Assembly (NCBI GenBank): GCA_009929265.1
Contig: SAAU01000006.1
Coordinates: forward strand, 1 to 64,000
Reading direction: 5' to 3'
Source: Alphaproteobacteria bacterium
GTDB lineage: Bacteria > Pseudomonadota > Alphaproteobacteria > CASFRQ01 > SAAU01
Length of the DNA: 64,000 nt
In this document: positions 38,265 to 61,979 of the stretch, piece after piece
Layout of the letters: each line of letters begins with the position of its first letter
Numbering within the stretch: the stretch's first letter is position 1
Translations under genes and position numbers: made by a program
The notes under the pieces: model-generated
Databases searched by the model: none
Seen by the model: only the letters and a program-made list of their open reading frames with translations
Told to the model about the DNA's origin: nothing

Positions 38265-38353
38265 AGCGCCATTCCTTTTTGATAAAATCAACCTGCGGTT
38301 TTTTGTATAAGCAAAAACATTATACCATAAGTTTTATAAATAACCAGAGGGAA

Positions 38354-41194: not shown

Positions 41195-41195
41195 T

Positions 41196-41693
41196 TTATT
41201 TATCCTGTTCATAATGAGATATAAGCTCATCCATATCGTCTATAAAGTCGTTATAATTTTTAATGTAATCATTTTTGCTTGCTACTTTTCTTAAATCTTC
41301 TCTTGTACGTTTATATCTAGAAGTATCTTCAGGGAGCTTAAAGTTTTTTGAAAAATCCGTTAATCTTTCAGTGTATTTGTTATTATCTGTACATATAGCT
41401 TCACATAGTAATTCGAAATCTGTATCCATATGAAGATTATGAATAGAACAAGAAAGATTAAAAAATTTATTTAATTTTATAATTTTATTTTTGTCATTAT
41501 TAAATTTCTCAAGTCTATCTAATTCTATTTTAAATGAAGAGTTATTATATTCAAGATCTTTATTTTTGTTGGAGGCATTTTTAATCATAAAGCGTATTAA
41601 CAATATTATGATAAGAATTAAACTGAGTATAGTTGCGTAAACAGCCCCTATTTCTCTTATTAGTTTTAATATTTCTTTAGTTAAATCACACAC
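41196..41693 (-). CDS. Single-pass membrane protein, first gene of the protease operon
   Basis: A 165-residue protein: a short N-terminus, one strong membrane helix (about 15-35, ILSLILIIILLIRF), then a long cytoplasmic helical part with basic and acidic residues and two close cysteines (FFNLSCSIHNLHM...LLCEAIC). No family is recognised. An ATG at 41705 lies only 2 nt behind the -10 box, too close to be in the transcript; the GTG at 41693 has GAGG 6 nt upstream and is the better start. Its stop is 1 nt before the 946-residue gene. Confidence 0.6.
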   Translation of the reverse strand: MCDLTKEILKLIREIGAVYATILSLILIIILLIRFMIKNASNKNKDLEYNNSSFKIELDRLEKFNNDKNKIIKLNKFFNLSCSIHNLHMDTDFELLCEAICTDNNKYTERLTDFSKNFKLPEDTSRYKRTREDLRKVASKNDYIKNYNDFIDDMDELISHYEQDK

Positions 41694-41707
41694 AATATAC
41701 CTCATTT

Positions 41708-42135: not shown

Positions 42136-43623
42136 ATGCCAAGTAAACCGAAAATTTCAAAATCACAATATGTTAAAGGACTACAGTGTCCAAAGGCACT
42201 TTGGTTCTATCGTCATCGCAAGGATTTAAAGCCTCCCATTGATCCTGCCACGCAAGCTCGCTTTGATGCAGGAAACGAGATCGGACAGCTTGCCATGCAG
42301 TATTTTAAAGGTGGCGTAGAAGTAACAGATGCTTATTGGGAGATTGAGAAAGCTGTTGCATCTACTCAGGATTTTATCAAACAAGGTCATGACATTATTT
42401 TTGAGGCAACGGCTATCCATCCATTAGACGGTGGTTATTCACGCATTGATGTCTTGCGTAAAGTCCCAAACAGTGATGAATGGGATCTGATCGAGGTTAA
42501 AAGCTCTACAGGCGTTAAGGATTATCACATCGACGATATGTCCTTTCAATATCATGTCTTCTTTGCCGCAGGCTATAAAATTCGTAAATGCCTGATGATG
42601 GTGATTGATAACACCTATGTACGACAAGGCGACATTGAACCGCAAAAACTCTTCAAACTGGAGGATATTTCAAACGAAGTATTTGCCAAGCAAAGCGATG
42701 TGGATTACTGGGCAACTCAGCTTGGTTATGTTCTTGATCGTAAAGATGAACCGGATATTCAAATTGGCGAAAGATGCTTCAATCCCTTTGAGTGCGAATA
42801 CCGTCATCACTGCTGGAAGCATATTCCAAAATATTCAGTTTTTGATATCTATCAAAAGAAGAAGATGGACGAGATCATCAATCAGATTGGAAGCTATGAC
42901 ATCAATGACATTCCGCCAAACCTCTTCCCTAATGGAGCTAAAGCCATTGATGTTGATTGCTATCAATGCGATAAAGAACATGTTGAGAAAGAGCCGATCC
43001 GTGAGTGGCTATCAGGTCTTGAATATCCGCTTTACTACTTGGATTATGAAACCTTGATGCCTGCCATACCTTTGTTTGATGGTACACGTCCGTTTCAGCA
43101 AGTGCCGTTTCAGTTCTCGCTTCATGTACAGGAAAATCCAAATGCAGAATTGCAGCATTTTGAGTTTATTCATAAAGAACAATCCGATCCACGTGAGGCT
43201 TTTGCCAAAGTATTAGTTGAGCTATGTGGAAAGTCAGGTTCAGTGATTGTTTATAATCAAGGTTTTGAAATGGCACGCAATCGAGAGCTGGCAGAAGACT
43301 TTCCTCAGTATGCAGATGGCCTGTTGGCGATAAATGATCGTGTTGTTGACCTTCTTGAACCATTCAAAAAACGCTGGATTTACAGTCCGAAACAGCAAGG
43401 CTCTGCATCGATTAAATATGTCCTACCGGCTTTTACGGATTTGAAATATGATGATATGAACATTGCCAACGGACAAGAAGCCATGGACGGATACTTCGCC
43501 TTTGCAAAAGGAAACATATCACCGGAGCAGTCGCATATTTTGTGGAAAAATCTATCTGAATACTGTAAGCTCGATACCTATGCAATGGTTGAGCTTTTAG
43601 AAATGCTTAAGAAGCATTGCTAA
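42136..43623 (+). CDS. DUF2779 protein: Cas4-like Fe-S nuclease fused to a DEDD exonuclease
   Basis: A 495-residue protein. The N-terminal half looks like a Cas4/AddB-type PD-(D/E)xK nuclease with an iron-sulfur cluster: Cys18 in LQCPKALW, the acidic GYSRIDVL, the ExK motif LIEVKSSTGVK, and three cysteines in CFNPFECEYRHHCW. The C-terminal half is DUF2779, an RNase H/DnaQ-like fold with YYLDYETLMP, an IVYNQGFE segment and CKLDTYAM. Such proteins should degrade DNA ends or single strands, and occur in mobile islands. The frame opens at 42070 but the ATG at 42136 follows AAAGGGAAAAG and begins the nuclease domain. It is convergent with the VRR-NUC gene, 3' ends overlapping by 17 nt. Confidence 0.85.
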   Translation: MPSKPKISKSQYVKGLQCPKALWFYRHRKDLKPPIDPATQARFDAGNEIGQLAMQYFKGGVEVTDAYWEIEKAVASTQDFIKQGHDIIFEATAIHPLDGGYSRIDVLRKVPNSDEWDLIEVKSSTGVKDYHIDDMSFQYHVFFAAGYKIRKCLMMVIDNTYVRQGDIEPQKLFKLEDISNEVFAKQSDVDYWATQLGYVLDRKDEPDIQIGERCFNPFECEYRHHCWKHIPKYSVFDIYQKKKMDEIINQIGSYDINDIPPNLFPNGAKAIDVDCYQCDKEHVEKEPIREWLSGLEYPLYYLDYETLMPAIPLFDGTRPFQQVPFQFSLHVQENPNAELQHFEFIHKEQSDPREAFAKVLVELCGKSGSVIVYNQGFEMARNRELAEDFPQYADGLLAINDRVVDLLEPFKKRWIYSPKQQGSASIKYVLPAFTDLKYDDMNIANGQEAMDGYFAFAKGNISPEQSHILWKNLSEYCKLDTYAMVELLEMLKKHC

Positions 43624-45375
43624 CTCCTTTAACCCGTACAATCTCAACAGGTATATTTTCATCAACCATCCATGAAAGCCAGTTTATCTGAGATTCTCTA
43701 ACTTGTTCTCGAACCTTCTTGATCTCAATCATTTTTAGTTCGTCATCATTCCAGATGATAAAGTCTGGTACACCAGAGCGATTTTCGTTTGGATTTTGAG
43801 CTATTCTGTAAACGATCTTGGCATAAGTATCAGAGTCAACTCTACGCAAAAATTTCTGTACTATGTCTGTTTTAGCGTATGCCAACATATCTTGATCACC
43901 ATTATAAATAAGCCTTGTCCATGTTCCTTTAGATCTCTTGATTTGTTGGTTTATGAAGTCAGAAAGATTAATCGACCTAATCTGTTCATAACGGCTATCG
44001 ATTTCTTGTTGCCTGTTAAGATAAAAGTCTTCTCCCCTAAAAAGATCATGTGGAATATCCTGCCCTTGTGAAGGGCTCCCATCCCCTCAAACACTTCATC
44101 CCAGAATGTTAGGCAGAACATGGCTTGCCAGAAAGATACTTCTGCTCGCATTACATGCCACCCTTGTTGCTCAGCATGGTCTTTAAAAGCTGACTCGGTT
44201 GAACAAGCTTCACCCTTTGAATCAAGAAACGCCAGTTTTCCCTTTTGCCCAGATTTTGAAATTTCAATTTCTCGGGTTATGGTTTTGTGATCAAATACCT
44301 CCTTTTCTTCTGATTGTTCTACAGATACGTCATCAGTGTATCCAATATGAGCACCAATATTTTCTAGCCATTGAACTTGTTTAGAATTTCCGTCTGCTTC
44401 ATATATTGCACTCAAAACATCATATGAGTTTAGCCTTGGCACCATATAATTCTTAAGTTTCTTAACCCAATCAAAGCTGATTGCTTCAAGTTTTTTCTCT
44501 TTTAGGCCGGGATTATCATAGAAATTCATCTGCTGTTCAGTGGTGAATAGCTCATGATCATGAAAAGATTTTAAGAAGTCTTCATAGAGATCAATGTCCT
44601 TTAGACACCAACTAATAAGCTCATCCTTGTAGGATGGGTTGAATTTATAACGTCGGTCCAAATATTCAATAATGCTTAAAATAATGAAATGCTTATCAGA
44701 AGCTGTTTGTGCAGTATTATATGCTTTAACTTGAGCTTCAAAATTTTCCCGAGCAATATTTTGCGAATTCCACAACTCAAACATACGCTCAATATCAGAT
44801 GTTAATTTCTCAGCATTAGATGAATTCGGAAACGTGTTTTTGAAAGCTATCATCATGGTCAAGAGACCGTTGAAATACTCCTCAGCCTTCCAGTTGGATT
44901 GAAGCTTTTGCAATCCAGCAAAGCTTTTCCACTCATGCTCTGGGTTCTGCAGTTGCAATCGCGCATGTTCGTAAGACAGGTGAATGGCTATGGCCTTTGA
45001 TTTCAGATTATCTCTTTGCTTATAAAAGCGGTTTATTTCTTTTTTAAGCACTGCTTCTAGCTTGGTTAAATCGTCTGGAAGATTAAGGGATTTTACCGAA
45101 TCTTCTATCTCGCTTAAGGGGTGGCCATGATTTTCATGAAATGCAGCTAAAGTTGAAAATGTATCTGTCAGTGCTGTTTCATTGTCTGGTGCAGGCTTGA
45201 ATGACTTTTTAAGAGACTTTAATGAATTCGCTTTTTGCTTTTTTGCTTCTTCCCAACCGCTGTTATCAACATGCACTGAAACTGTCAGAACAGGCTCTTC
45301 TTTTTTACCGTTTTTATTGCCAGAAAAAACTTTATAAAGAAAATAACCTACTACGATTACAATTATGGTTTCCAT
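43607..45375 (-). pseudogene. VRR-NUC domain protein, split by a frameshift
   Basis: Two minus-strand frames make one protein of about 588 residues. The first (start 45375) has an N-terminal membrane helix (about 1-18), a long helical middle and the start of the nuclease domain (EVSFWQAMFCLTFWDEVFEG); it then runs out of frame. The right frame continues one base off with GSPSQGQDIPHDLFRGEDFY and reads without a stop through MLAYAKTDIVQKFL to the VRR-NUC core GVPDFIIWN and MIEIKKVREQ, ending at 43607. The break is best explained by one lost base in the G-run opposite 44083-44086. VRR-NUC is a PD-(D/E)xK nuclease fold used on DNA junctions and in phage defence. The break may be decay, phase variation or a sequencing error. 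Confidence 0.85.
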
Positions 45376-46343
45376 TTATTCACCTCCCCAATCATCTCTT
45401 GATACTTCTGTTTCAAATGATCAGGGGCGATAATTTCAACATCCTTGCCCCACGTAAACAGATGCCAGCACATTTCCATCCAGCCACCTGCTGTAAATGT
45501 CACCAAGAGTGTTCCATCGTCTTGCTCATCAAAGACCTGTGAGGGGTGAAATTGATATTCTTTGGCACGTGGTGCAACATCACTTGAGAACTTCCATACA
45601 ACCTTAAAAGGCTCTTCTTGGAACACACCAAAAGACCGTTCGGCATAATCCTGCAAAGAGAATGAACGCTTGCGAGTGAAAGGCTTATCCGTGATAACAG
45701 CTTCCTGAATATTCGAAAGACTGAACATGCGGAAATCTTTTGCCTTATCGCACCAAGCAATCATGTAATGGCGATTGCCATATAAAAAGCCGTAAGGAGC
45801 AACAACACGTTCTGATGTGTCTTCTTCGTGGATAGGCTCGTAAGTGATTTTGACTTTAAGACAGGCTTTGACGGCGTTGCGAAGTGTATTTAAAACTTCC
45901 CCTTTGATCTTTAGCTTTGGTCCGGGACGCATCGCAAAACCTTCTGCCTCAAGCAAAGCTTCCAGATCTGTTTCCAGCTTAGCTACCTGATCCGCACGCA
46001 CAATGCTTTTGATTTTGATCGCAAGGTTTTCAAGAATATCTGCCGGCTCTTCCAGATTATCACGACGCAAACGCGAAATGGCAGCTTGTAGCTCCGCCAG
46101 CTCATCCGCATCAAACCGCGTGAGTGAGGAAAACTTGCCCGATGGAATACGCCAACGTTTATTCCGCCCTTCCTTGATTTCAATCATCTGAGGCACAAGT
46201 CGCCCGATCACATCACGCATACGCTCAGCCGTACGACGACTGACGTTAAACTCCTCGGCAATGTCTGTTGTTGAAACGCCCTCGGCCGTTGATTGCATCC
46301 AGATCGCAAGTTTTAAAAGATTTTCAGCTTGTTCAAAGCGCAT
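45363..46343 (-). CDS. WYL-domain transcriptional regulator
   Basis: A 326-residue regulator. An N-terminal HTH (about 20-45, STTDIAEEFNVSRRTAERM) is followed by a WYL domain (about 165-225, with APYGFLYGNRHYMIAWCD, where WYL is varied) and a WCX extension (about 240-320). WYL proteins bind nucleic-acid-like ligands and often control defence islands, usually as repressors. It overlaps the start of the VRR-NUC gene by 13 nt and is divergent from the helicase gene; the 184-nt intergene holds direct repeats that could be its operators. Confidence 0.9.
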   Translation of the reverse strand: MRFEQAENLLKLAIWMQSTAEGVSTTDIAEEFNVSRRTAERMRDVIGRLVPQMIEIKEGRNKRWRIPSGKFSSLTRFDADELAELQAAISRLRRDNLEEPADILENLAIKIKSIVRADQVAKLETDLEALLEAEGFAMRPGPKLKIKGEVLNTLRNAVKACLKVKITYEPIHEEDTSERVVAPYGFLYGNRHYMIAWCDKAKDFRMFSLSNIQEAVITDKPFTRKRSFSLQDYAERSFGVFQEEPFKVVWKFSSDVAPRAKEYQFHPSQVFDEQDDGTLLVTFTAGGWMEMCWHLFTWGKDVEIIAPDHLKQKYQEMIGEVNKWKP

Positions 46344-46396
46344 AACCTGTTCTCCATAAATGAGCTGTTTTCTTTATTTTTAAGACAATTAAGGTC

Positions 46397-46424
46397 AAAT
46401 GTCCAGCAAAAAGAGAAAATGTTC
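46397..46424. repeat. Direct repeats between the WYL regulator and the helicase gene
   Basis: AAATGTCC (46397-46404) and AAATGTTC (46417-46424) start exactly 20 nt apart, about two helical turns. They lie between the divergent regulator and helicase promoters and could be the WYL regulator's binding site. Confidence 0.4.
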
Positions 46425-46457
46425 GACCATGGGTGTCGTTTATTAAGTGCTTTTTAC

Positions 46458-46486
46458 TTGTAATTTCTCATATTTTCTTTTATGTT
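46458..46486 (+). promoter_or_regulatory. Promoter of the helicase/Type III R-M operon
   Basis: TTGTAA at 46458-46463 and TATGTT at 46481-46486, spaced 17 nt, 41 nt before the ATG at 46528. Confidence 0.5.
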
Positions 46487-46527
46487 CTTATTTATATGAA
46501 AAAAGCACTATATAAAATCGAGGAAAG

Positions 46528-49500
46528 ATGCTATTAGATAATAAAGGACATGGAAAAGTTATATCCGAGCTTCAAAAGGCGATTCAGCCCAATTCTAAGC
46601 TTGCCGTTCTTTCAGGTCTTTTTTCAATATATGGTTTCTCTGCATTAAAAAAAGAGCTGTCAAACCTTGATGAGTTTCGTTTAATGCTTTCTCGTTGGGA
46701 TGATGAATCTTTAAATACGCTTGCAGGCACACCGCAAGAAACACTGCTAAAAAACAAATTAGATCAAAGCCGTGTCGCAAAAGAGTGTGCAACTTGGCTT
46801 AGAAAAAATGTAATAGCTCGTGCCATGAATGGAAAAATGGCATTTCCACCGCAAAACATGTTCCATATTAAAAACAAGGATAAGTCTTTTGTTGTGCAAG
46901 GTGGATCACATTTTACTGCTACAGGTCTAGGACAGATCAAATCAGATACCTTTGAGATTAATATGGGTATTTCCGATGTTGATACAACAAAACAACTACT
47001 CCAATGGTTTGATACTATTTGGAATGACATTAGGGCCACTCAGGATATCAAGAATGAACTCATGATCCGCCTTAACTACCTAGCAGAGGATAAGCCTGCA
47101 AATTTGGTTTACTTCATCACGCTTTATAACATATTTAAGGATTATTTAGAGGACATTGATGAAGAGAGTATTATTCGTTCTAAGACTGGATTTAAAGAAA
47201 CGCTCGTCTGGAATAAACTCTATAAATTTCAACGTGACGGGGTGCTGGGAGCGATTGATAAGCTGGAAAAGTATAATGGATGCATCATTGCGGATAGCGT
47301 TGGTTTAGGTAAAACCTTTGAAGCCTTAGCTGTAATTAAATATTATGAGCTTCGCAATGACCGTGTTCTTGTTCTTTGCCCTAAAAAGCTTCGTGAAAAT
47401 TGGACAGTTTATACTATTAACGACAAGCGTAATCTTTTATCAGCAGACCGATTTAACTATGATGTTTTAAATCACACGGATTTATCACGCCCAGGAGGAA
47501 AATCAGGTGAGATAAACCTGGAAACACTTAACTGGGGTAATTATGACCTTCTGGTTATTGACGAATCCCACAATTTTCGTAACAGCGGCACTAAGGCTGA
47601 CGGAGCTAACCGATATCAAAAGCTAATGAATCAGGTGATATGTTCTGGAGTTAAAACCAAAGTCCTTATGCTTTCTGCCACCCCTGTAAACAGTCGAATG
47701 AATGATTTAAAGAACCAGGTTTCCTTCATCACAGAAGGACGAGATACTGCATATTCTGATTTTGGTATTAACAGCATTGAAAACACACTAAAGAAAGCTC
47801 AGACGAAATTCAATCAGTGGCTCAAATTGCCAGAAGATAAACGCAAAGCTGAAGCTTTACTGGAAAGTATGAACTTTGATTATTTTAAGTTGCTTGATTT
47901 ATTAACGATTGCGCGCTCCAGAAAACATATTGAAAAATATTACGATATTAATGAAATTGGCAAATTTCCTGATCGTTTAAAGCCAATGAACATAAAAGCT
48001 GATATTGATATCAGTGGACAATTTCCAGCACTTAAAGATGTAAATATGTCGATTAAAAAATTAAATCTAGCTGCTTATGCCCCCCTCGAATATGTTCGCA
48101 TGGATAAAAAGGAAGAATATAGCCGTAAATACGACCAAGAGGTCAAGGGTGGTGCGTCTGTCTTCCGTCAAGTCGACCGTGAACGCAACTTGATTCACTT
48201 GATGAGAATTAATCTGTTAAAACGTATGGAAAGCTCTATCAATTCATTTGGTCAAACGGTTGGTAAAGTACATAATAAAATTCAAACTATTCTTGAGCAG
48301 ATTGATCGACATGAAAACTCAGAATTTGAAGAGTTGAGTATCGAAGATATTCAAATAGATGATCCAATGCTTGAAAAATACCTAATAGGTAATAAAACTA
48401 AAATTCTTATTCAGGATATGGATTTGATGCGTTGGAAACAAGATTTAGAAGATGATCTTGAACTTCTTGCCAAGCTTCAAACAGATACACTAAAAGTAAC
48501 CGCAACAGAGGATGCAAAACTTCTTAAACTTAAAGAGGTTTTGATGAATAAAATTAATAATCCAATTAATATTGGTAACAGAAAAGCTGTTATATTCACT
48601 GCTTTTTCGGATACAGCTGAATATCTTTATGAGAACATTGCAAATTGGGCTTTATCAGAACTCGGCTTGCATTCGTCTTTGGTCACAGGAAGTGGAACGA
48701 ATCAATGTACGATTAAAGGGCTAAACAAAGACCTGAACAATATCCTCACGCATTTTTCACCAATATCAAAAGAGCGGGATAAAATTAGCCCTGATGCCAC
48801 GACGGAGATTGATATTCTCATTGCAACCGATTGTATTTCGGAAGGTCAAAATCTGCAAGACTGCGATATGCTTATTAACTATGATATTCACTGGAATCCG
48901 GTTCGTATTATCCAACGCTTTGGTCGTGTTGATCGTTTAGGATCTCTCAATCAGGCTATCCAGCTTGCCAATTTCTGGCCGAATATGGAGCTGGACGAAT
49001 ATATCAATCTTGAGGCTCGTGTGAGTGGTCGTATGGTATTACTTGATATATCTGCCACCGGTGAGGAAAATGTCATCAATTATGATGAGAAAAAACAAAT
49101 GAACGATTTAGAATATCGTCGTCGCCAGATGAAACAACTTCAAGAATCTGTTGTGGATCTTGAAGATATGGATGGCAGTGTATCGATAACTGATATGACA
49201 CTCAATGATTTTCGTATGGATTTATCAGGCTTTATGAAAGACAATATGGAACAGCTCGAACAATCTCCTTCAGGTTTTTATGCTGTTGTAAGCAAAAGCA
49301 TGGATGAAATTGTTTCAGGCACCATCTTTTGTTTGAAAGATATCCACGGAAAGGTTGAGTTTGATCCCAATTACGCACTTTCTCCTTATTACATGGTGTA
49401 TGTAGCTGAGGATGGCAATATTATATATAACCATCTGCAGAGCAAAAAGAGCCTCGATATCTTCAAGAAACTTTGCTCAATGAATAAAACTATAGATGAA

Positions 49501-49725
49501 TCCGCCATTGCCGGCCTAAATGATACCACCAAGAACGGCAAAGATATGGGGGCATATCAGTTCATGTTGGAAACAGCCATTCAATCCGTTATTGGTAAAA
49601 CAGAGGAAAAAGGTATTGAAAGTCTATTTAGCCGAGGCGGAACATCGCTCACACAAGATCAATTCTCTGGTCTCGAAGATTTCGAAGTTATTAGCTATTT
49701 GATCATTCGGGAGGTGGAAGCATGA
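46528..49725 (+). CDS. PLD-like SNF2/superfamily 2 helicase
   Basis: A 1065-residue protein. Residues about 1-190 look like a phospholipase-D-like domain (KLAVLSGLFSIYGFSALKK); the SF2 motor follows with Walker A ADSVGLGKTFEAL near residue 258, DEAH-type VIDESHNFRN near 345, the SAT motif LSATPVNSR, and the C-terminal lobe with ATDCISEGQNLQDCD and IQRFGRVDRLGS near 770-810. This is the RapA/DrmD-like type found in restriction and DISARM-like islands, where it translocates on DNA. It is the first gene of a five-gene operon; the next gene overlaps its stop by 4 nt. Confidence 0.9.
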   Translation: MLLDNKGHGKVISELQKAIQPNSKLAVLSGLFSIYGFSALKKELSNLDEFRLMLSRWDDESLNTLAGTPQETLLKNKLDQSRVAKECATWLRKNVIARAMNGKMAFPPQNMFHIKNKDKSFVVQGGSHFTATGLGQIKSDTFEINMGISDVDTTKQLLQWFDTIWNDIRATQDIKNELMIRLNYLAEDKPANLVYFITLYNIFKDYLEDIDEESIIRSKTGFKETLVWNKLYKFQRDGVLGAIDKLEKYNGCIIADSVGLGKTFEALAVIKYYELRNDRVLVLCPKKLRENWTVYTINDKRNLLSADRFNYDVLNHTDLSRPGGKSGEINLETLNWGNYDLLVIDESHNFRNSGTKADGANRYQKLMNQVICSGVKTKVLMLSATPVNSRMNDLKNQVSFITEGRDTAYSDFGINSIENTLKKAQTKFNQWLKLPEDKRKAEALLESMNFDYFKLLDLLTIARSRKHIEKYYDINEIGKFPDRLKPMNIKADIDISGQFPALKDVNMSIKKLNLAAYAPLEYVRMDKKEEYSRKYDQEVKGGASVFRQVDRERNLIHLMRINLLKRMESSINSFGQTVGKVHNKIQTILEQIDRHENSEFEELSIEDIQIDDPMLEKYLIGNKTKILIQDMDLMRWKQDLEDDLELLAKLQTDTLKVTATEDAKLLKLKEVLMNKINNPINIGNRKAVIFTAFSDTAEYLYENIANWALSELGLHSSLVTGSGTNQCTIKGLNKDLNNILTHFSPISKERDKISPDATTEIDILIATDCISEGQNLQDCDMLINYDIHWNPVRIIQRFGRVDRLGSLNQAIQLANFWPNMELDEYINLEARVSGRMVLLDISATGEENVINYDEKKQMNDLEYRRRQMKQLQESVVDLEDMDGSVSITDMTLNDFRMDLSGFMKDNMEQLEQSPSGFYAVVSKSMDEIVSGTIFCLKDIHGKVEFDPNYALSPYYMVYVAEDGNIIYNHLQSKKSLDIFKKLCSMNKTIDESAIAGLNDTTKNGKDMGAYQFMLETAIQSVIGKTEEKGIESLFSRGGTSLTQDQFSGLEDFEVISYLIIREVEA

Positions 49726-50474
49726 CACAGATATTCTATGAATATATGAACATTTCTGAAAAATGCTTGCTGAATAAACCTCTTTTCAAGAAGCTTTTCC
49801 AAGAACACGCTGATCTCGATATAACAGACAAAAAAGCCCTGAAGGATGATATTGAGAAGATCCGCTGGGTTTATACGCTTAAACCTGCAACGGTGAATAT
49901 CTCTGCTTATCGTGATGAGGTGCGTGAGTATGACGAAATAGCGGTTATACAAATTGATATTACTAGTGCCAATCGTACCAATCGAATTACAAACTTTGTA
50001 AATAAAGCCATTCCATATCCGATTGTATTGGTTTTTAGCTTTGTGGATACTATTGCCATTAGCGTAGCTGACAAACGGATCAACCAAGCGGACAAATCCA
50101 AATGGGTGGTGGAAGATTCCTGGATGACAGAATGGTTTAACCCATATAAACCAAATGAAGCACAACAAAAGTTTATGCAGGATATGGCACTAAAAAACTT
50201 GTCTTTTGTAAATTTTTACGCATTCTATACAGATATTAAAAACCGTGTGATTGCACTAAATTCTGCCAAACGAAGCGGTAGTTATCAGATCGTATCAGCG
50301 GAAAAAACAAAGAATCGCCGTGAGAGTCTAATAAAAATCACGGAGTTAGAAAGAGAAATTACAGAATTACGTTCTGCTATCAAGACGGAAACACAATTCA
50401 ATAAAAAGCTGGAATTAAATGTTTTAATAAAAGAACGCCAAGATTTTATTAAGCAATTGGAACAAAATTTATAG
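49722..50474 (+). CDS. DUF4391 domain protein
   Basis: A 250-residue protein of the DUF4391 family, which nearly always stands next to helicase and Type III restriction genes. Characteristic features are LLNKPLFKKLF near the N-terminus, IRWVYTLKPATVNISAY, and IPYPIVLVF with an acidic VVEDSWMTEWFNP. The C-terminal third (about 200-250) is a Lys/Glu coiled coil. Its start overlaps the helicase stop (ATGA). The biochemical role is unknown to me; a structural or loading partner of the helicase or methylase is plausible. Confidence 0.8.
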   Translation: MTQIFYEYMNISEKCLLNKPLFKKLFQEHADLDITDKKALKDDIEKIRWVYTLKPATVNISAYRDEVREYDEIAVIQIDITSANRTNRITNFVNKAIPYPIVLVFSFVDTIAISVADKRINQADKSKWVVEDSWMTEWFNPYKPNEAQQKFMQDMALKNLSFVNFYAFYTDIKNRVIALNSAKRSGSYQIVSAEKTKNRRESLIKITELEREITELRSAIKTETQFNKKLELNVLIKERQDFIKQLEQNL

Positions 50475-50486
50475 AAGGAGCAGAAA

Positions 50487-52505
50487 ATGAACGAAATAAA
50501 GAAACTAGACGGCAAGAGCATGGATATTGTGGAACAAAATATTGAACAACTTAAAGAGCTGTTCCCTGAAGTATTCGCAGAAGGAAAAATCAAGTTTAAC
50601 CAGTTGCAGGAATTACTCGGCAATTATGTAGTGGAAGATGAAGATCACTATAACTTTACATGGCATGGCAAGCGCAAGGCGGGTCGTTTGGCACAAACAC
50701 CCAGCACAGGCACACTGCGCCCCGCCAAAGATGAAAGCGTTGATTGGGACACCACAGAGAACTTGTTTATCGAAGGCGATAATTTAGAAGTCCTCAAGCT
50801 CCTCCAAAAATCATATCACCGCAAAGTAAAGATGATTTATATTGACCCGCCATATAACACAGGCAATGATTTTGTTTATTCAGATGATTTTAAAGATGGT
50901 ATAAAGAATTATCTTAAAATGACAGGGCAAGTGGACAGCCAAGGCAAAAAAATGGGAACTAACTCCAGCAGTGCTGGCAGATACCATACTAACTGGCTGA
51001 ATATGATGTATCCGCGTTTAAAGCTGGCGAGAAACCTGATGTGTGATGATGGGGTTATTTTTATTTCTATTGATGACAATGAGTCTGGTAACCTACGAAA
51101 ACTATGTGATGAGGTTTTTGGAGAGGAGAATTTATTAAGAATTCTTTCTGTAGAGCTAACAAAAACACAAGGAATGAAAGTTAAATCTGCACAAGAAGGA
51201 ACAATTGTTAAAAATTATGAACCTGTGTTCTGTTATGCAAAAGACAAGTCTAAACTAAACAAAGTTAGCAGAGTCTTATATGACAAAGGAGAGTTGTTTG
51301 ACACACATTACAATTGCATAATAGAAAATAATAAAAAGGAATCTTTGTGCGATTTTTTGCTTAAAAATAACGATATTAGAGAAGAGTTATATTCTTTAAA
51401 GCTGTTAAAAAATGAAAAGCTACCAATTAAAAATATAGAAAAAGCATTGTATCTATCTGATAAGTTTAAAAAATATATATATGAGGATATTTCGAATATT
51501 ATTTACCAAGAGACTGCTTGTGAAATTTCATTACCTACTGATATAGAGCAAAGTATTGGCTATGGAGATATTGTGGAATATTCAAAATACTTATTAACAA
51601 AGTCTAAAGGAGGTAATATCAGGCAATATATATCATTAGAAAAATCATTAAATACTGATGATACATATAACCCAAGTTTTGGAAGAGTTACGATACGCGG
51701 AGACCTTTGGAAAGGCTTTTATTCTGACATGATGAATGTTGCTAAAGAAGGAGGCGTTGATTTTAAAAATGGTAAAAAACCAGTTAGACTAATACATCAG
51801 CTTGCAAAATGGTTTATTGATAACGATGATATAGTTTTAGATTTTTTTGCAGGTTCAGGTACAACAGCTCAAGCAGTAACATTACTGAACACTAAAGAAA
51901 ATATTAATTCAAGATATATTTTAATTCAACTACCTGAAAAACTGAATGAAAATATTAAAGAACAAAAAGAAAGCTTTAATTTTTGTAAGTCATTAAATTT
52001 ACCAACAAATGTGGCTGAAATATCCAAGGAACGTATTCGCCGTGCTGCCAAGAAAATTCAAGAAGAAAACCCTGATTATAAGGGTGATCTAGGTTTCAAA
52101 GTCTTTAAGCTTGATAGCTCCAACATTAAACGCTGGGAAGCAGATTTTGATACGCTTGAGCAAGACCTTCTCAATGCTGTTGATTATATCAAGCAGGATC
52201 GCTCCAGCGATGATGTGCTTTATGAATTGCTCTTGAAATACGGTCTTGATCTCACTGTTCCAATTGAAACGCGTACCATCGCCGAAAAAACTGTTTATTC
52301 CATCGGTCTAGGCGCTCTGGTTGTGTGCCTAGACAAGGATATCAACATGGATGTGGTAAACGGCATAGGCGCATTGAAAGAAGAACTGAACCCTGAAATT
52401 ATGCGCGTCGTGTTCAAGGATGATGGTTTCAAAGATGATGTGGTCAAAACCAACGCCCTGCAAACGCTCAAGCGTTATGGAATCGAAGATATCAAGAGCT
52501 TATAG
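50487..52505 (+). CDS. mod: Type III restriction-modification methyltransferase (Mod)
   Basis: A 672-residue beta-class N6-adenine methyltransferase. The catalytic motif DPPYNTGND begins at residue 120, and the SAM-binding motif LDFFAGSGTTAQAV lies near residue 450, in the order of the beta class. Between them (about 215-440) is the target recognition domain, which is far more AT-rich than the flanks and was probably exchanged. The C-terminal part (about 510-672) contacts Res. GGAG precedes the ATG, and Res follows after 10 nt. Methylation would protect the host's own sites. Confidence 0.93.
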   Translation: MNEIKKLDGKSMDIVEQNIEQLKELFPEVFAEGKIKFNQLQELLGNYVVEDEDHYNFTWHGKRKAGRLAQTPSTGTLRPAKDESVDWDTTENLFIEGDNLEVLKLLQKSYHRKVKMIYIDPPYNTGNDFVYSDDFKDGIKNYLKMTGQVDSQGKKMGTNSSSAGRYHTNWLNMMYPRLKLARNLMCDDGVIFISIDDNESGNLRKLCDEVFGEENLLRILSVELTKTQGMKVKSAQEGTIVKNYEPVFCYAKDKSKLNKVSRVLYDKGELFDTHYNCIIENNKKESLCDFLLKNNDIREELYSLKLLKNEKLPIKNIEKALYLSDKFKKYIYEDISNIIYQETACEISLPTDIEQSIGYGDIVEYSKYLLTKSKGGNIRQYISLEKSLNTDDTYNPSFGRVTIRGDLWKGFYSDMMNVAKEGGVDFKNGKKPVRLIHQLAKWFIDNDDIVLDFFAGSGTTAQAVTLLNTKENINSRYILIQLPEKLNENIKEQKESFNFCKSLNLPTNVAEISKERIRRAAKKIQEENPDYKGDLGFKVFKLDSSNIKRWEADFDTLEQDLLNAVDYIKQDRSSDDVLYELLLKYGLDLTVPIETRTIAEKTVYSIGLGALVVCLDKDINMDVVNGIGALKEELNPEIMRVVFKDDGFKDDVVKTNALQTLKRYGIEDIKSL

Positions 52506-52515
52506 GAGGTGATAT

Positions 52516-55485
52516 ATGATGAAAATTAAATTTGATCCAAATCAGAATCACCAACGTCGTGCTTGGGAATCTGTCATTGATATATTTGAAGGGCAAGAGT
52601 TGAATAAAACAACATTCTCTATGCCCTCACTTGCATCAAATGAATTTGAAGCGATTTTAATGAATCAAACGGACAAAGGTTTCGGTAACCGCTTACGTCT
52701 ATTGGATGAAGAAATACAGGACAATGTCCGCAAAATTCAGCTCAACAATGGATTGAAGCAAACAAAAGAATTAAAAAGCCGTGACTTTACGATTGAAATG
52801 GAGACCGGAACAGGTAAAACTTATGTTTATCTCCGATCCGTCTTTGAGATGAACAAAAAGTACGGTTTCACAAAATTCATCATTGTTGTGCCAAGCATTG
52901 CCATTAAAGAAGGTGTTTATAAATCTCTCCAGATGACTGATACACACTTCCGTGAACAATACGATAATGTGCCGTTTGATTATTTTGTATATGATTCTAG
53001 TCGGCTAGAACAAGTCCGCAGTTTTGCCACGAATGATTATATACAGATCATGGTAATCAATATTGATGCGTTCCGCAAAAGCTTCACTGATCCAGCAAAA
53101 GAAACCAGTGCTAATATTATTCATCGTTGGAATGATAAAATGCAGGGTATACCGATTGACTTTATTCAATCCACCAACCCGATTGTAATTATAGATGAGC
53201 CACAAAGTGTCGACACCACCGCCAAATCATCAGAGGCCATTAAGTCCCTCAATCCCCTATGTACCTTCCGATATTCAGCTACGCATGTTGAGAAGCATAA
53301 TATGCTTTATAAGCTTGATTCCATTGATGCCTATAAGCAAAAACTTGTGAAACAGATAGAGGTTGCCTCTATTCAGGTGAGAGATGGTCACAACAAAGCT
53401 TATATCAAGCTATTAGCCGTAGATAACAAAAACGGTCACCGTGCCAAAATTGAAATTGATATACAGCAAAAAGGTAATGTCAAACGTACCGAGAAATGGG
53501 TTAAACAAGGTGATGACTTGCTGAGTATTTCTGGAGGACGCTCTATCTATGACGGATATGTACTCAATGATATTTACTGCGAAGAAGGCAATGAATATGT
53601 AGACTTCACCAGCAAGCCAGATATTATTCGCCTACACCATGCCATTGGCGAAGTGAATGAGGATGAATATAAACGTCTGCAAATCCGCAAAACCATTGAA
53701 GAGCATTTGGACAAAGAGCTGAAACTCACACCTATGGGTATTAAGGTTTTAAGTCTCTTCTTTATTGATAAAGTAGCGAATTACCGAGACTATGATGCAC
53801 CGGATCAAAAAGGCAAATACGCTATCATGTTTGAGGAAGAATATGCAAAGGCAATCAAAAAACCAAAGTATAATACTCTCTTCAAGGATATGGATACATC
53901 AAGCCTGCCGGAAATCGTTCACAACGGATATTTTTCTGGTGACAAGACAGGTTTTAAAGATACTAGCGGTACAACAAAGGCTGATGAAGATACATATAGC
54001 TTGATTATGAAGGACAAGGAAAAACTACTTAGCTTTGATTCCAAGCTAAAGTTTATCTTTTCTCACTCTGCTCTGAAAGAAGGCTGGGATAATCCAAATG
54101 TATTTCAAATCTGTACATTGAATGAAACAAAATCAACGATCAAGAAACGCCAAGAAATAGGACGTGGGTTGCGTATATCCGTCAATCAAGACGGAGAACG
54201 TGTTCACGGGTTTGATGTCAATACGCTTACTGTCATGGCGAATGAATCCTATGAAGATTTTGTTGAAGGCTTGCAGAAAGAAATTGAAAAAGAGGAAGGC
54301 ATTAAGTTTGGCATTATTGAAGACCACAGCTTTGCAAATATCGTTATTGAAAAAGAAAATGGCGAGCAAGCCTTTTTGGGTGCTGAGGCTTCGGAAATAA
54401 TTTGGAAGAACTTGCTGGAAAGTAAGTATATTGACGATCGAGGCAGAGTAACTGATGAGCTTAAGAAAGCCTTAAAGGAAGACAAAGTTAAACTTCCAGA
54501 GCAATTTGAAGAACATCGTGAAGATATAACAGCTACTCTTAAAAAGGTTGCCGGAGGTCTAAATATTAAAAATAACGATGATAAACGGACAGTACGTTTA
54601 AATAAAGCCGTGTTTGATAGTCCCGAGTTTAAGGAACTATGGGATCGCATTAAATACAAAACAGTCTACAATGTGGACTTTGATCCTGAGGAGCTTATTA
54701 CAAAATGTGCAGAAAGCATTCAAAAGAATTTGATCGTTGGAAAAACAAAATTTAATTACACTCGTGCAAAAACTGAAATTGGTAAAGCTGGTGTTACTAT
54801 TACGGATAGCCAAGAAAGCACTCATTTGTATGATGTGCGTGATTATCAAATACCAGATATTTTAAGCTACCTACAAAATGAAACAAACCTGAAACGAAAG
54901 TCTATTCTCGATATCTTGATTAAGAGTGGTCGCCTGAACGACTTTAAGAATAACCCTCAAAAATTCATTGATGAGGCGAAAGAAGTTATTAAGCGTGAAA
55001 TGCGTCGCTTTATCGTAGATGGCATTAAATACCACAAAATTGGTGACGAACATTTTTACGCACAAGAGCTTTTTGAAAGCGAGGAGCTGATTGGATATTT
55101 AAACAAAAATATGATCGAAGCTGAAAAATCTGCTTATGACCATGTTGTTTATGATTCAGATATCGAATCCGGTCTTGCTCAATCCTTTGAAAAGAATGAT
55201 GAAGTTAAAGTTTACGCTAAGCTACCAGGTTGGTTTAAGATTGAAACTCCCCTTGGATCATACAATCCTGACTGGGCAGTGTTATTTGAACTTGATGGTC
55301 AAGAAAAGTTGTATTTCGTGGTTGAAAGCAAAGGTACTATTTTTGAAGATATGTTACGTGACGTAGAACAAGCTAAAATTCATTGCGGACATGAACATTT
55401 CAAAGCCCTTGGTGAAGAGACAAACTACATTGTGGCTAGTAATTACGAAACGTTTGTGGATAAAGCCACATCTGGAGTTAAATAA
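52516..55485 (+). CDS. res: Type III restriction endonuclease subunit (Res)
   Basis: A 989-residue Res. Walker A METGTGKT is at about 95-102, the DEAD-like box VIIDEPQSVD near 225, and the C-terminal motor motif LKEGWDNPN and RQEIGRGLRI near 525-550. The nuclease is at the C-terminus: YNPDWAVLFE and VVESKG (about 916-940) form the PD-(D/E)xK site. Res works with Mod: it slides from unmethylated sites with ATP and cuts DNA. The start has AGGAGGTGAT, a full complement of the 16S tail; ATG at 52516 or 52519. Confidence 0.93.
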   Translation: MMKIKFDPNQNHQRRAWESVIDIFEGQELNKTTFSMPSLASNEFEAILMNQTDKGFGNRLRLLDEEIQDNVRKIQLNNGLKQTKELKSRDFTIEMETGTGKTYVYLRSVFEMNKKYGFTKFIIVVPSIAIKEGVYKSLQMTDTHFREQYDNVPFDYFVYDSSRLEQVRSFATNDYIQIMVINIDAFRKSFTDPAKETSANIIHRWNDKMQGIPIDFIQSTNPIVIIDEPQSVDTTAKSSEAIKSLNPLCTFRYSATHVEKHNMLYKLDSIDAYKQKLVKQIEVASIQVRDGHNKAYIKLLAVDNKNGHRAKIEIDIQQKGNVKRTEKWVKQGDDLLSISGGRSIYDGYVLNDIYCEEGNEYVDFTSKPDIIRLHHAIGEVNEDEYKRLQIRKTIEEHLDKELKLTPMGIKVLSLFFIDKVANYRDYDAPDQKGKYAIMFEEEYAKAIKKPKYNTLFKDMDTSSLPEIVHNGYFSGDKTGFKDTSGTTKADEDTYSLIMKDKEKLLSFDSKLKFIFSHSALKEGWDNPNVFQICTLNETKSTIKKRQEIGRGLRISVNQDGERVHGFDVNTLTVMANESYEDFVEGLQKEIEKEEGIKFGIIEDHSFANIVIEKENGEQAFLGAEASEIIWKNLLESKYIDDRGRVTDELKKALKEDKVKLPEQFEEHREDITATLKKVAGGLNIKNNDDKRTVRLNKAVFDSPEFKELWDRIKYKTVYNVDFDPEELITKCAESIQKNLIVGKTKFNYTRAKTEIGKAGVTITDSQESTHLYDVRDYQIPDILSYLQNETNLKRKSILDILIKSGRLNDFKNNPQKFIDEAKEVIKREMRRFIVDGIKYHKIGDEHFYAQELFESEELIGYLNKNMIEAEKSAYDHVVYDSDIESGLAQSFEKNDEVKVYAKLPGWFKIETPLGSYNPDWAVLFELDGQEKLYFVVESKGTIFEDMLRDVEQAKIHCGHEHFKALGEETNYIVASNYETFVDKATSGVK

Positions 55486-55486
55486 A

Positions 55487-57640
55487 ATGGAAAAGTTGAA
55501 AATAAATCTGGAATATTGTTATGGTATAAAAAAACTTGAACAAGAATTTGTCTTTAGCAACAGAACATTTGCAATTTATGCTCCAAATGGTGTTATGAAA
55601 ACATCTTTTGCAAAAACATTCAATGATTATTCTAAGGGCGATTTAACAAAAGATTTAGCTTTTCCAGATAGGAAAACTGTAAGAAAAATTAGTGCAGATG
55701 ACAACGACGTTAAGCCTGAAAATATTTTTGTAATAGAACCATATGATGCTGATTATAAATCAGAAAAAATATCAACACTACTTGCAAACAAAGATCTTAA
55801 ACAAAAATATGAAAATGCTCATCGAGAGATTGATAAAGCCAAGGATGACTTATTCAAAGAGTTAAGATTACTATCTGGATTTAAAAAGGATAACATAGAG
55901 AAAGAAATATCATTAGCCTTTAATGGAGACTTTTTTAATATTTTAATTGATTTAGATAGCGAAGTTGAAAAAGGTATTGCCTCATCACTTAGTAAAATAA
56001 AATATCAATCTATCTTTGATCCAAAAGTTGTCGAATTTTTAAATACATCAACATTTAAAAAAGACATACAAAAATATATTGAAAAATATGATGAGCTAAT
56101 TGAAAAATCTCCTTATCTTAATAAGGATTTTAAATTTCATAACGCCGAAATAATTCAACAAAATTTAGCAGATAATAAATTTTTTAAAGGTGGTCATTCT
56201 ATCAATATTTGCAATGGGGCAAAAGAAACAAAATATAATAATGATAAAGATATAATTGACTTATTTGAAAAAGAAAAGAATAAAATATTTAACGATGCGG
56301 AGTTAGAAAAGATTTTTACTGATATTGGCAAAAAGCTCTCTAACGAAAAACTTCGCTCATTTAGAGAATACCTTTTGGATAATAAAGAAATTTTACAAGA
56401 ACTTTCCGATTTAGATAAACTAAAAAAGGATTTATGGAAAGCTTACTTTGTAGAGCAGAAAAAAGCTTACAAAGATTTAGTTGAAAAATATAAATCAGGG
56501 CAAATAAAAATAAAAGAACTAATAGAAGAAGCAAAAAACGAAAAAACTGATTGGGAAGAGGTTATAAGAATTTTTAATACAAGATTTTCGCACTTACCGT
56601 TCCACTTAAACATTAAAAACAAAGAAGATGTTATATTAAAGAATGATGTTGAAACTATTGAATTTATATTTAGAGACTTAGATGGTGAGAAATTATTTGA
56701 AAAGAAAGAAGATCTTCTGAGTATATTAAGCACTGGAGAGCAAAGAGCATTATACATTTTAAATATTATTTTTGAAGTAGAGGCGCGCAAAAAAGAAGTT
56801 TCTGAAACATTATTTATTATTGATGATATAGCCGACTCTTTTGACTATAAAAACAAATATGCCATTATTGAATATCTGAAATATATGTCTGAGATAGATA
56901 ATTTTTATATGATGATTCTATCCCATAATTTTGATTTTTTTAGAACCATCCAAAGCAGAAGGGTTTCAACTTATAAACAAAGTTTAATAGCCCTGAAAAA
57001 TACTTCTGGCATTAAATTAGAACCGATTAAATATCTTAAAAATCCTTTCATTAATAATTGGAAGTCGGATTTAAACGACAATAAGAAATTAATAGCCTCA
57101 ATTCCATTTATAAGAAATATTATTGAATATACACAGGGGATGGATAATGATAATTATAGATTATTGACCTCTGTATTACATTACAAAGACAACACAAATA
57201 CTTTAATCTTGAAGAATATAAAGGAAACATTCGAAAGCAACATTCAAGGAATCAATTTCCCAAATAATAACAATAAAAAAGTTATAGATTTAATTTTTGA
57301 AACTGCAGATGAATGTTTAATTGCGGATGAAGGTATTAATCTAGAAAATAAAATTGTTTTATCTATTGCAATTAGGTTAAAAGCTGAGAAATTCATGTCA
57401 GAAAAAATTACAGATAATGTATTTTTATCTAAACTCGGAACTAAGCAAAATTGGAAGCTTCTTAAAAAATATGAAGAAGAATACAATAACGAAAAAAGCC
57501 ATATAGAAATTTTAAAGAGAGTAAATTTAATTACTCCTGAAAATATTCATGTCAATTCGTTTATGTATGAACCTATTTTAGATATGGGAGATGGTGAACT
57601 AAGAGAACTTTATAAATTAGTGAAGTCTGATTTAAATTAA
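55487..57640 (+). CDS. ABC-like AAA ATPase, PrrC/RloC-like (AAA_13 type)
   Basis: A 717-residue ATPase. The P-loop is YAPNGVMKTSF (Lys38), the ABC signature LSTGEQRAL near 413, Walker B LFIIDDIADSFD near 441 and the switch His in LSHNFDFF near 478; a coiled coil fills the middle. This layout is that of AAA_13 proteins such as the anticodon nucleases PrrC and RloC that guard R-M systems. The C-terminal 200 residues carry ITPENIHVNSFMYEPILDMG; I cannot confirm a nuclease triad. The frame opens at 55391 within Res, but the ATG at 55487, 1 nt after the Res stop, gives the proper start. Its sequence is more AT-rich than mod/res flanks. Confidence 0.8.
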   Translation: MEKLKINLEYCYGIKKLEQEFVFSNRTFAIYAPNGVMKTSFAKTFNDYSKGDLTKDLAFPDRKTVRKISADDNDVKPENIFVIEPYDADYKSEKISTLLANKDLKQKYENAHREIDKAKDDLFKELRLLSGFKKDNIEKEISLAFNGDFFNILIDLDSEVEKGIASSLSKIKYQSIFDPKVVEFLNTSTFKKDIQKYIEKYDELIEKSPYLNKDFKFHNAEIIQQNLADNKFFKGGHSINICNGAKETKYNNDKDIIDLFEKEKNKIFNDAELEKIFTDIGKKLSNEKLRSFREYLLDNKEILQELSDLDKLKKDLWKAYFVEQKKAYKDLVEKYKSGQIKIKELIEEAKNEKTDWEEVIRIFNTRFSHLPFHLNIKNKEDVILKNDVETIEFIFRDLDGEKLFEKKEDLLSILSTGEQRALYILNIIFEVEARKKEVSETLFIIDDIADSFDYKNKYAIIEYLKYMSEIDNFYMMILSHNFDFFRTIQSRRVSTYKQSLIALKNTSGIKLEPIKYLKNPFINNWKSDLNDNKKLIASIPFIRNIIEYTQGMDNDNYRLLTSVLHYKDNTNTLILKNIKETFESNIQGINFPNNNNKKVIDLIFETADECLIADEGINLENKIVLSIAIRLKAEKFMSEKITDNVFLSKLGTKQNWKLLKKYEEEYNNEKSHIEILKRVNLITPENIHVNSFMYEPILDMGDGELRELYKLVKSDLN

Positions 57641-57645
57641 ATATT

Positions 57646-57861
57646 TCACTCTCCACACCTCTCTTCCCATTCCTGATTATAGTCGTCGATCTGACGGATG
57701 GTTTCCATGGAGAGTTTATTGTCTAGCTCATCTTCTGTGACCGTGATTGGCTTTGCCCAGAGGCAGAAGTTATCGACGGGTGTATTTACGCATGCGCTTA
57801 ATGACAGTATCATCAGTATCATTGCGACGCTTTGAACGCCTTTTTTGAGTTTTAAGGGCAT
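57646..57861 (-). CDS. Rz1-like outer-membrane spanin lipoprotein
   Basis: A 71-residue lipoprotein: basic N-terminus, hydrophobic core and lipobox LSAC (Cys24), followed by a short acidic mature part. It overlaps the Rz-like gene by 92 nt in another frame, the nested architecture unique to spanin pairs. It would join the outer membrane to the Rz protein and fuse the envelope at the end of lysis. It ends 5 nt from the convergent ATPase gene. Confidence 0.75.
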   Translation of the reverse strand: MPLKLKKGVQSVAMILMILSLSACVNTPVDNFCLWAKPITVTEDELDNKLSMETIRQIDDYNQEWEERCGE

Positions 57862-57985
57862 CGTCTACTCCTTTTTTAAGTTGCTTGTGTTGCTCACTAC
57901 TTTTACCTTTGAAGTATCCAAAGATAAAAACTGCGGAGAGCAGCCCAACAGCCACTCCCGCCTTGATTAAAAGCCCTTCGATCAT
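57770..57985 (-). CDS. Rz-like inner-membrane spanin
   Basis: A 71-residue protein with an N-terminal membrane helix (about 6-25) and a basic, Lys/Arg/Asp-rich tail predicted to reach into the periplasm. It is short for an Rz, and the coiled coil is brief. Its start overlaps the holin-like stop (ATGA) and its 3' end is shared with Rz1. The call rests mainly on position and nesting. Confidence 0.65.
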   Translation of the reverse strand: MIEGLLIKAGVAVGLLSAVFIFGYFKGKSSEQHKQLKKGVDDALKTQKRRSKRRNDTDDTVIKRMRKYTRR

Positions 57986-58221
57986 TTCTTCTCCTTGCTT
58001 TGAATTCCTTTTTCAAAAACACCGATCCCAAGAAGTCCGCCACCGGAGATTAAAAACATGTTAATAATTCCAAGCGCGGTTGCAGCATCGGCTGCACCCT
58101 TTGATAAGCTGTAAATGAATAAAACGATTGAGAATAAAATCCCAATCCCGAGAACGATTGAACCCCAAAGACGTTTTGAGGATTTGTTGCCATTGGCATC
58201 TTCTAAAAAACTGTTTGTCAT
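57982..58221 (-). CDS. Holin-like membrane protein
   Basis: A 79-residue protein with two membrane helices (about 21-41 and 48-69) separated by a short loop, a polar N-terminus and a Lys-rich C-terminus. Size, topology and place between endolysin and spanins suggest a holin that opens the inner membrane. No specific holin family is recognised. Confidence 0.6.
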   Translation of the reverse strand: MTNSFLEDANGNKSSKRLWGSIVLGIGILFSIVLFIYSLSKGAADAATALGIINMFLISGGGLLGIGVFEKGIQSKEKK

Positions 58222-58223
58222 AG

Positions 58224-58619
58224 TTAAACTCCTTTCAATTCAAAATGTGGTAAGTCAAAAAATGTTTGATCATGTAGATCGTTATCGCCGTCCCAGTCAG
58301 CTCCGCATCGAATTTCAATACCCAGCTGATCCGCAACGCCTTTCACGTATCCGACAAAATGATAAAAACGGATGCGGTCATTCCAGTTAATCGGATATGG
58401 AGCTACATCCACTGCAATGGACGGGTTTTCATTGTGCTTACTGAAGCCTGCACGAAGCTTGGATTTACCTTGATAATAAAGCTCTTCTTGGCGTTCATTT
58501 GATCGATGACCTTCCAAAATGGTGCAGTCATATTTCTTGATGACTTCGTTAAAAAGTCTCTGCAAATCGGCATGACAAGTCGCCAGCCGTTCCGCAGAAC
58601 GGTTGCTAAATTGTGGCAT
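58224..58619 (-). CDS. M15-family endolysin (peptidoglycan peptidase)
   Basis: A 131-residue zinc peptidase of the M15 (VanY/T5-lysin-like) family that cuts the peptide stems of peptidoglycan. Zinc ligands are His62 and Asp71 in SKHNENPSIAVDV and His125 in FFDLPHFEL, with Asp122 as likely catalytic base. LEGHRSNERQEELY is the typical N-terminal block. There is no signal peptide, so export relies on the holin. GGAGAAT precedes the ATG. Confidence 0.88.
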   Translation of the reverse strand: MPQFSNRSAERLATCHADLQRLFNEVIKKYDCTILEGHRSNERQEELYYQGKSKLRAGFSKHNENPSIAVDVAPYPINWNDRIRFYHFVGYVKGVADQLGIEIRCGADWDGDNDLHDQTFFDLPHFELKGV

Positions 58620-58629
58620 ATTATTCTCC

Positions 58630-58929: not shown

Positions 58930-58940
58930 AATTTAACTCC

Positions 58941-61978: not shown

Positions 61979-61979
61979 T

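Follow-up and report, generated by a model that had tools for sequence, protein, structure and literature searches.

The textbook case of a protein that guards restriction is PrrC, which accompanies type Ic restriction-modification (R-M) systems. Its guarding of EcoprrI serves as the model for an R-M guard (PMC2610378, PMC12707154), and RloC was found at type I or type III R-M loci in 8 of 72 cases (PMC2610378). BREX and related systems are reported to carry backup effectors inside their operons, such as GmrSD, OLD/TOPRIM, Schlafen and HNH proteins (PMC12839542). The principle of a backup effector within a restriction-type operon is thus already known from BREX, PrrC and RloC. Here, we describe a type III R-M operon, and the ABC-type ATPase of the PDC-S46 family encoded directly behind it, in a stretch of 64,000 nucleotides of an alphaproteobacterial genome (hereafter the window), which belongs to an assembly of 1.24 Mb in 87 contigs. 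This block is a conserved core of four genes with two internal slots and one downstream slot for exchangeable defence genes, and PDC-S46 became linked to type III operons on at least four separate occasions. In the open-access literature, we found no paper on the four-gene core with its slots or on the function of its member DUF4391, no direct precedent for cargo in type III R-M operons and no description of a linkage of PDC-S46 to R-M.

A conserved core with slots for exchangeable genes

The genes were identified by scanning the open reading frames (ORFs) of the window with Pfam, PADLOC and NCBIfam profiles. Positions 46528-55485 of the forward strand form a compact operon with the order SNF2 helicase, DUF4391, Mod and Res, followed by the ATPase from 55487, and the spacing along these genes is -4, +12, +10 and +1 base pairs (bp). 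An initial annotation made from the sequence alone had embedded a type III Mod/Res pair in one operon with a helicase and DUF4391, which the spacing of -4 to +12 bp bears out, and its families DUF2779, WYL, SNF2 helicase, DUF4391, Mod and Res are confirmed by ORF coordinates and profile matches. In the PADLOC profiles, type III Mod and Res were recovered and the ATPase was assigned to PDC-S46, with DrmD below its cut-off.

About 60 loci around helicase relatives, taken from plasmids, Pseudomonadota, the class of the window, Bacteroidota and the class of locus L058, were compared with all window genes. Relatives of the SNF2 helicase occur in 21 of 399 Pseudomonadota, 8 of 385 members of the window's class, 18 of 248 Bacteroidota (the phylum of locus L030) and 107 plasmid records, and DUF4391, Mod and Res are also present at most of the helicase-relative loci that could be traced. 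The four-gene core was found in Pseudomonadota, Bacteroidota, plasmids of Enterococcus and E. coli, and one archaeal plasmid (Methanomethylovorans), where an unnamed gene occupies slot 1. That helicase, DUF4391 and type III R-M form a recurring set, as had been suggested, is therefore borne out by the many loci that carry this core.

Insertions are concentrated at two junctions of the core. Inserts longer than 400 bp separate the helicase from DUF4391 in a single locus of 49, DUF4391 from Mod (slot 1) in 13 of 45 and Mod from Res (slot 2) in 16 of 40, where L216 and L218 enter both of the latter counts because their Mod fragments are ambiguous. Indeed, DUF4391 adjoins the helicase in 48 of the 49 measured loci. 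Extra co-directional ORFs occupy the slots or closely follow res in 28 of 35 operons (hand-made table), and 22 of those operons carry a recognised defence-type family as cargo, by our own count from the family results. The cargo comprises GmrSD type IV enzymes, Gabija GajAB, DRT3 reverse transcriptases, Schlafen-AlbA, Fic with PDC-M59A, Abi_C, AbiH/DUF4917, YhcG/DUF1016, AAA_21 with DUF4276, and an AAA_13 protein with a CxxC hook that is related to RloC. Slot 1 alone holds Abi_C in the relative G050, AbiH/DUF4917 in the relative G1046 and PDC-S46 in L058 and L142; the PDC-S46 ATPase of the window stands in the downstream slot 3, behind res. The cores of the window, G050 and G1046 share 73-86% DNA identity, homology ends at the gene ends and the slot contents differ, the remaining cargo of G050 being PDC-M59A with Fic and a pair of DRT3 reverse transcriptases.

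Within the core itself, Mod is related to the EcoP15I Mod (4zcf_A) and has the motif order DPPY then FxGSG of that kind of Mod. When mod was aligned by blastn to either G050 or G1046, the alignment ended at 51133 and restarted at 52006/52007, as would be expected of a swapped target recognition domain. Res matches the EcoP15I Res (4zcf_C, E 6e-67); its motifs METGTGKT, DEPQ and P-D...E-x-K are at least 95% conserved, and it combines helicase motifs of superfamily 2 with a C-terminal PD-(D/E)XK endonuclease next to mod, as is characteristic of type III enzymes. In the helicase, the Walker A/DEAH and C-terminal helicase motifs are likewise at least 95% conserved (58 sequences). Its N-terminus corresponds to one half of a PLD repeat in which the HKD motif is not conserved across the same 58 sequences, so that the PLD-like domain is degenerate; of the PLD-SNF2 helicase named in the initial annotation, the SNF2 part holds and the PLD part as a nuclease does not. 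A PDB search with DUF4391 gave no relative.

Two further observations concern the slots and the spread of the operon. PDC-M59A and a Fic/Doc protein of 146-151 amino acids (aa) recur between Mod and Res in L143, L145, L160 and L207 and probably constitute a two-gene module. On a mobilizable plasmid of Acinetobacter gerneri (L134, 6244-23459), the R-M operon lies behind Tn7-like genes (TnsA-like, TniB and TniQ).

Association of PDC-S46 with restriction genes

PDC-S46 was sampled at 80 genome loci, and 61 sequences were placed on a tree. Among the 80 loci, the full SNF2-DUF4391-Mod-Res core is present at L058 and L084, and in L042 PDC-S46 lies behind a Mod-x-Res arrangement. L142, found by operon-first sampling, and L233, found in a scan of viral contigs, also join the full core with PDC-S46. 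In L058 and L142, the ATPase gene separates DUF4391 from Mod, whereas in four loci including the window it directly follows Res. On the tree, the members linked to type III systems require at least four changes that are forced by supported branches. The histories of the core and of the ATPase differ, because their similarities do not run in parallel: the window and L233 are similar at 65% for the ATPase and 37% for Res, against 41% for the ATPase and 62% for Res in the comparison with L084.

The association extends to other kinds of restriction. The close upstream neighbours of PDC-S46 (n = 43, in a family scan that also took in three Hsd genes of G050) are in many cases R-M genes, among them three type III Res, HsdR, several HsdS, Mrr-like and DpnII proteins and methylases, and PDC-S46 is thus found behind Type I, II and IV genes in other genomes. 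In G050 (L161, 8629-18178), a complete HsdM-HsdS-HsdR set is followed after about 440 bp by PDC-S46, on a contig shared with an SNF2-DUF4391-Mod-Res operon; with its type I system, this arrangement is like that of PrrC.

The viral contig of L233 carries the full SNF2-DUF4391-Mod-Res-PDC-S46 operon. This set may travel on phages, or the operon may be a piece of host DNA within the contig. A search for RloC in viral contigs returned one locus.

The ATPase and its C-terminal domain

Positions 1-717 of the 719 in the PDC-S46 profile match residues 33-746 of a longer ORF. Because the match begins at residue 33, the start was placed 1 bp past the stop of res, giving 717 rather than 749 aa; the longer ORF is a mechanical extension. 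The ATPase had been annotated as a PrrC-like AAA_13 protein, a label that we rejected at face value: there is no match to Pfam AAA_13 at E 0.01, the family is PDC-S46, and the CxxC zinc hook, which RloC control sequences possess, is missing in 58 of 59 PDC-S46 relatives. The AlphaFold model of the protein, with a predicted local distance difference test (pLDDT) score of 89.5, presents a Rad50/SMC-like ABC head whose best structural matches are SMC and Rad50 heads. Searches of PDB sequences with the single sequence and with a profile gave nothing useful. The Walker A motif of the family is unusual (PNGxMK[TS]S), and the Walker, signature and C-terminal residues are invariant in 59 sequences.

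The invariant C-terminal residues are R543-x3-E547, H565, R630-x3-E634 and H688 (59 of 59 sequences), that is, two R-x3-E pairs with a histidine spacing of x17 (H565) or x53 (H688). In hhalign, PDC-S46 aligned to a profile of nine RloC sequences with a probability of 98.3%, mainly over the ATPase part, and these nine controls show the published R-x3-E...H triad and the zinc hook. R543-E547-H565 is possible as a PrrC triad, although its spacing is wrong, and the spacing of R630-E634-H688 is nearer to the RloC triad, neither being proven. The invariant R, E and H residues would fit a metal-independent RNase like PrrC and RloC, without proving one. When the C-terminal domain was searched with Foldseek, the listed matches with a probability of at least 0.1 were all HEPN/HepT structures (2q00, 1wwp, 6m6u and 6m6w), all of them non-significant; 2q00 and 1wwp are HEPN proteins (PMC3710099).

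Possible roles of the ATPase

We lean towards a reading in which the type III operon is a first-line restriction system whose slots carry exchangeable second-line genes, here PDC-S46, that probably act by abortive infection. The SNF2 helicase-DUF4391-Mod-Res operon would restrict incoming DNA as the first line, and its fixed slots would supply second-line defence genes, with PDC-S46 in the downstream slot. The ATPase head would sense infection or a disturbed restriction complex, with inhibited restriction, DNA damage or a change in deoxynucleoside triphosphates as candidate triggers; the C-terminal helical domain would then be released as an RNase, and translation would stop in the manner of PrrC and RloC. 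This reading builds on the observed gene content, the conservation of the core, the exchange of slot contents, the several independent occasions on which PDC-S46 came together with R-M genes, the ABC head and the invariance of R, E and H residues in the C-terminal domain; a defence function of PDC-S46, an RNase activity, such a trigger and a contact with Mod-Res are its predicted parts.

Several results weigh against it. About half of the PDC-S46 loci (45 of 89) lack a close upstream gene of the same orientation, which implies that R-M is not required for the ATPase to work. The naive chance expectation of the core at PDC-S46 loci is 0.02 of 80, but defence genes cluster in islands and adjacency is weaker evidence than this figure suggests; since the naive expectation ignores such clustering, we read the co-occurrence as enrichment only. 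As for the C-terminal domain, its best HEPN-like match in Foldseek has an E value of 0.9, the strict HEPN motif Rx4-6H is absent, as no invariant H in the PDC-S46 alignment is preceded by an invariant R at a distance of 4-6 residues, and the domain alone gave no match to the RloC profile (0.8%). The Rx4-6H motif nevertheless varies in some HEPN families (PMC3710099).

A possible, though clearly less probable, explanation is that PDC-S46 is self-sufficient and was brought to the R-M operon by passive clustering of defence genes, having only a promoter in common with it and no functional contact. The loci that lack an upstream partner are in line with this, as are the plasmids, where PDC-S46 appears in 27 records and most of the 12 inspected have no type III R-M; very diverse slot partners also fit co-transcription without specific contact. 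Passive clustering accounts less well for the position of PDC-S46 inside the operon in L058 and L142 and immediately after Res in a further four loci, or for its separate joinings with type III R-M, at least four in number. Being usually found without type III R-M, PDC-S46 is therefore an optional and exchangeable part. The idea of the initial annotation that the ATPase backs up type III R-M thus finds partial support, in the recurrent independent association.

It is unlikely that PDC-S46 is instead a DNA-acting, Rad50/SMC-like partner that helps the SNF2 helicase and Res to cleave DNA and carries no RNase toxin. The SMC and Rad50 heads matched by the full model, and the lack of a significant RNase fold match, speak for such a partner, but the C-terminal domain with its invariant R, E and H has no match among Rad50/SMC structures and PDC-S46 occurs without the helicase in most genomes.

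Returning to exchangeable second-line genes in a restriction operon, a bolder version would make PDC-S46 a new family of R-M guard RNases, silenced by several types of restriction complex and freed when a phage inhibits restriction, with the SNF2-DUF4391 type III operon as a general docking platform whose slots take unrelated guards. We put this forward tentatively and consider it rather doubtful. Were a second ABC-ATPase family to prove a recurrent companion of type I, II, III and IV restriction genes, guarding restriction would become a strategy of general reach that can be put to the test. The SNF2-DUF4391-Mod-Res core with its fixed cargo slots further provides a search handle, since slot genes of unknown kind are promising candidates for new abortive-infection genes; it also turns the function of DUF4391 into a defined question.

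Features of the locus and its neighbours

The positions of all features are given in Table 1. The genes number eight when the interrupted VRR-NUC gene is taken as one, with DUF2779 (+), VRR-NUC (-) and WYL (-) in the left block and five forward genes in the right block.

Table 1. Genes, domains and cargo slots of the restriction operon and its left-hand neighbours.
Feature	Positions	Strand	Evidence or remark
DUF2779 protein, RecB-like nuclease and RNase-H-like domain; neighbour, convergent	42136..43623	+	Pfam DUF2779 E 1.4e-45
VRR-NUC C-terminal piece (93 aa) of interrupted gene; neighbour	43607..43888	-	Pfam VRR_NUC E 1.9e-13
474-aa N-terminal ORF of probably frame-interrupted gene; neighbour	43951..45375	-	no family in profile scans
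DriD-like helix-turn-helix WYL regulator, 326 aa; neighbour, divergent from operon, possible regulator	45363..46343	-	Pfam WYL and WCX
SNF2-family helicase, core gene 1, 1065 aa	46528..49725	+	PADLOC C3a139 'HKD+Snf2' E 9.7e-127
DUF4391 protein, core gene 2, 250 aa	49722..50474	+	Pfam PF14335 E 7.2e-63; start overlaps helicase stop
Slot 1 (between DUF4391 and Mod), empty in window	50475..50486	+	>400 bp in 13/45 loci
Type III Mod N6 methyltransferase, core gene 3, 672 aa	50487..52505	+	PADLOC MTase_III E 3e-194
Centre of mod, probable target recognition domain	51134..52006	+	DNA of close relatives does not align here
Slot 2 (between Mod and Res), empty in window	52506..52515	+	>400 bp in 16/40 loci
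Type III Res helicase-endonuclease, core gene 4, 989 aa	52516..55485	+	PADLOC REase_III 1127 bits; Pfam RE_endonuc E 4.3e-34
PDC-S46 ABC-type ATPase, slot 3, candidate backup effector, 717 aa	55487..57640	+	PADLOC PDC-S46 E 4.6e-257
C-terminal all-alpha domain of ATPase, probable effector domain	57020..57637	+	model pLDDT 90.4, folded alone

The ORF of the DUF2779 protein opens at a GTG at 42070, and its RNase_H_2 match is below the Pfam cut-off. Because the VRR-NUC reading frame is already open within the 3' region of the 474-aa ORF, the two are most likely a single gene whose frame was broken by a sequencing error or a mutation. A stand-alone small VRR-NUC protein was rejected on the same grounds, and of the WYL and VRR-NUC proteins said to diverge from the operon, both are indeed on the reverse strand, the latter not as a small separate protein. 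The WYL protein matches the structure of DriD (8tp8_A, E 1.3e-56, residues 1-317), an activator of Caulobacter that responds to single-stranded DNA (PMC11804915).

That all these genes form one layered system of eight, including DUF2779, VRR-NUC and WYL, as the initial annotation proposed, is very unlikely despite their physical proximity and although BrxR-family WYL proteins are known near type III restriction (PMC9122601): no homologue of DUF2779 or of the 474-aa/VRR-NUC protein turned up near any of the 34 operon loci compared first and a WYL homologue stood beside one of them (plasmid locus L139), so that these genes are not kept with the operon, the VRR-NUC gene is frame-broken, and the 474-aa protein has no relative among plasmids. 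The left-block genes look like unrelated neighbours of the restriction operon.

To the right of the operon, at 57646-62440, lie phage tail genes (a GPD baseplate hub and a tape-measure-like gene) and a terminase RNaseH-like ORF, which represent a prophage or a remnant of one. On the far left, the reverse strand of 37221-41705 encodes an S8 subtilase-like gene, a 958-aa protein and a 169-aa ORF in DNA of very low guanine-cytosine content (27-33%); the 958-aa protein has a weak whole-length match to Dsr1 (PADLOC, E 1.5e-13), and the region is possibly another small defence locus. Scans for sigma-70 promoters and terminators gave a signal no better than chance. The transfer-messenger RNA gene of the window genome is flagged as the permuted type by ARAGORN, in keeping with an alphaproteobacterial host.

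Comparison with known systems

EcoprrI-PrrC resembles the window in pairing an R-M operon with an ABC ATPase, a possible second line, that has R-x3-E and H residues in its C-terminal part. PrrC differs in its type Ic R-M partner and its length of 341-416 aa, compared with a type III system and an ATPase of 717 aa whose cleavage of tRNA would be a prediction. Its triad is Arg-x3-Glu-x31-His, whereas the histidine spacing in PDC-S46 is x17 or x53, and PDC-S46 often stands alone.

RloC shares a homologous ABC part with PDC-S46 (98.3% in hhalign), and a CxxC-bearing AAA_13/RloC relative occupies the same slot in L166. RloC differs by its zinc hook, absent in 58 of 59 PDC-S46 sequences, by the PNGxMK[TS]S Walker A of the latter, and by C-terminal domains whose profiles do not align. 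The RloC triad is Arg-x3-Glu-x36-52-His, and R630-x3-E634-x53-H688 of PDC-S46 lies one residue beyond this range.

The kinds of cargo carried inside the BREX core operon are those of the SNF2-DUF4391-Mod-Res slots. However, the core in the window is a type III Mod-Res with SNF2 and DUF4391, and no PglZ, BrxC or DUF3780 is present among the operon proteins. The BREX-related type 2 system (HKD and Swi2/Snf2) differs in that the HKD motif of the window helicase is not conserved and no DUF3780 was found in the Pfam scan. The helicase had also been called DrmD-like: the likeness to the DISARM protein is real (E 4e-39), but membership is not, with 162.9 bits against a cut-off of 610, and there is no DrmA, DrmB or DrmC protein in the operon, only cross-matches of the helicase. 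Finally, the ATPase is a whole-length member of the PADLOC family PDC-S46, which is listed there only as a candidate phage defence gene.

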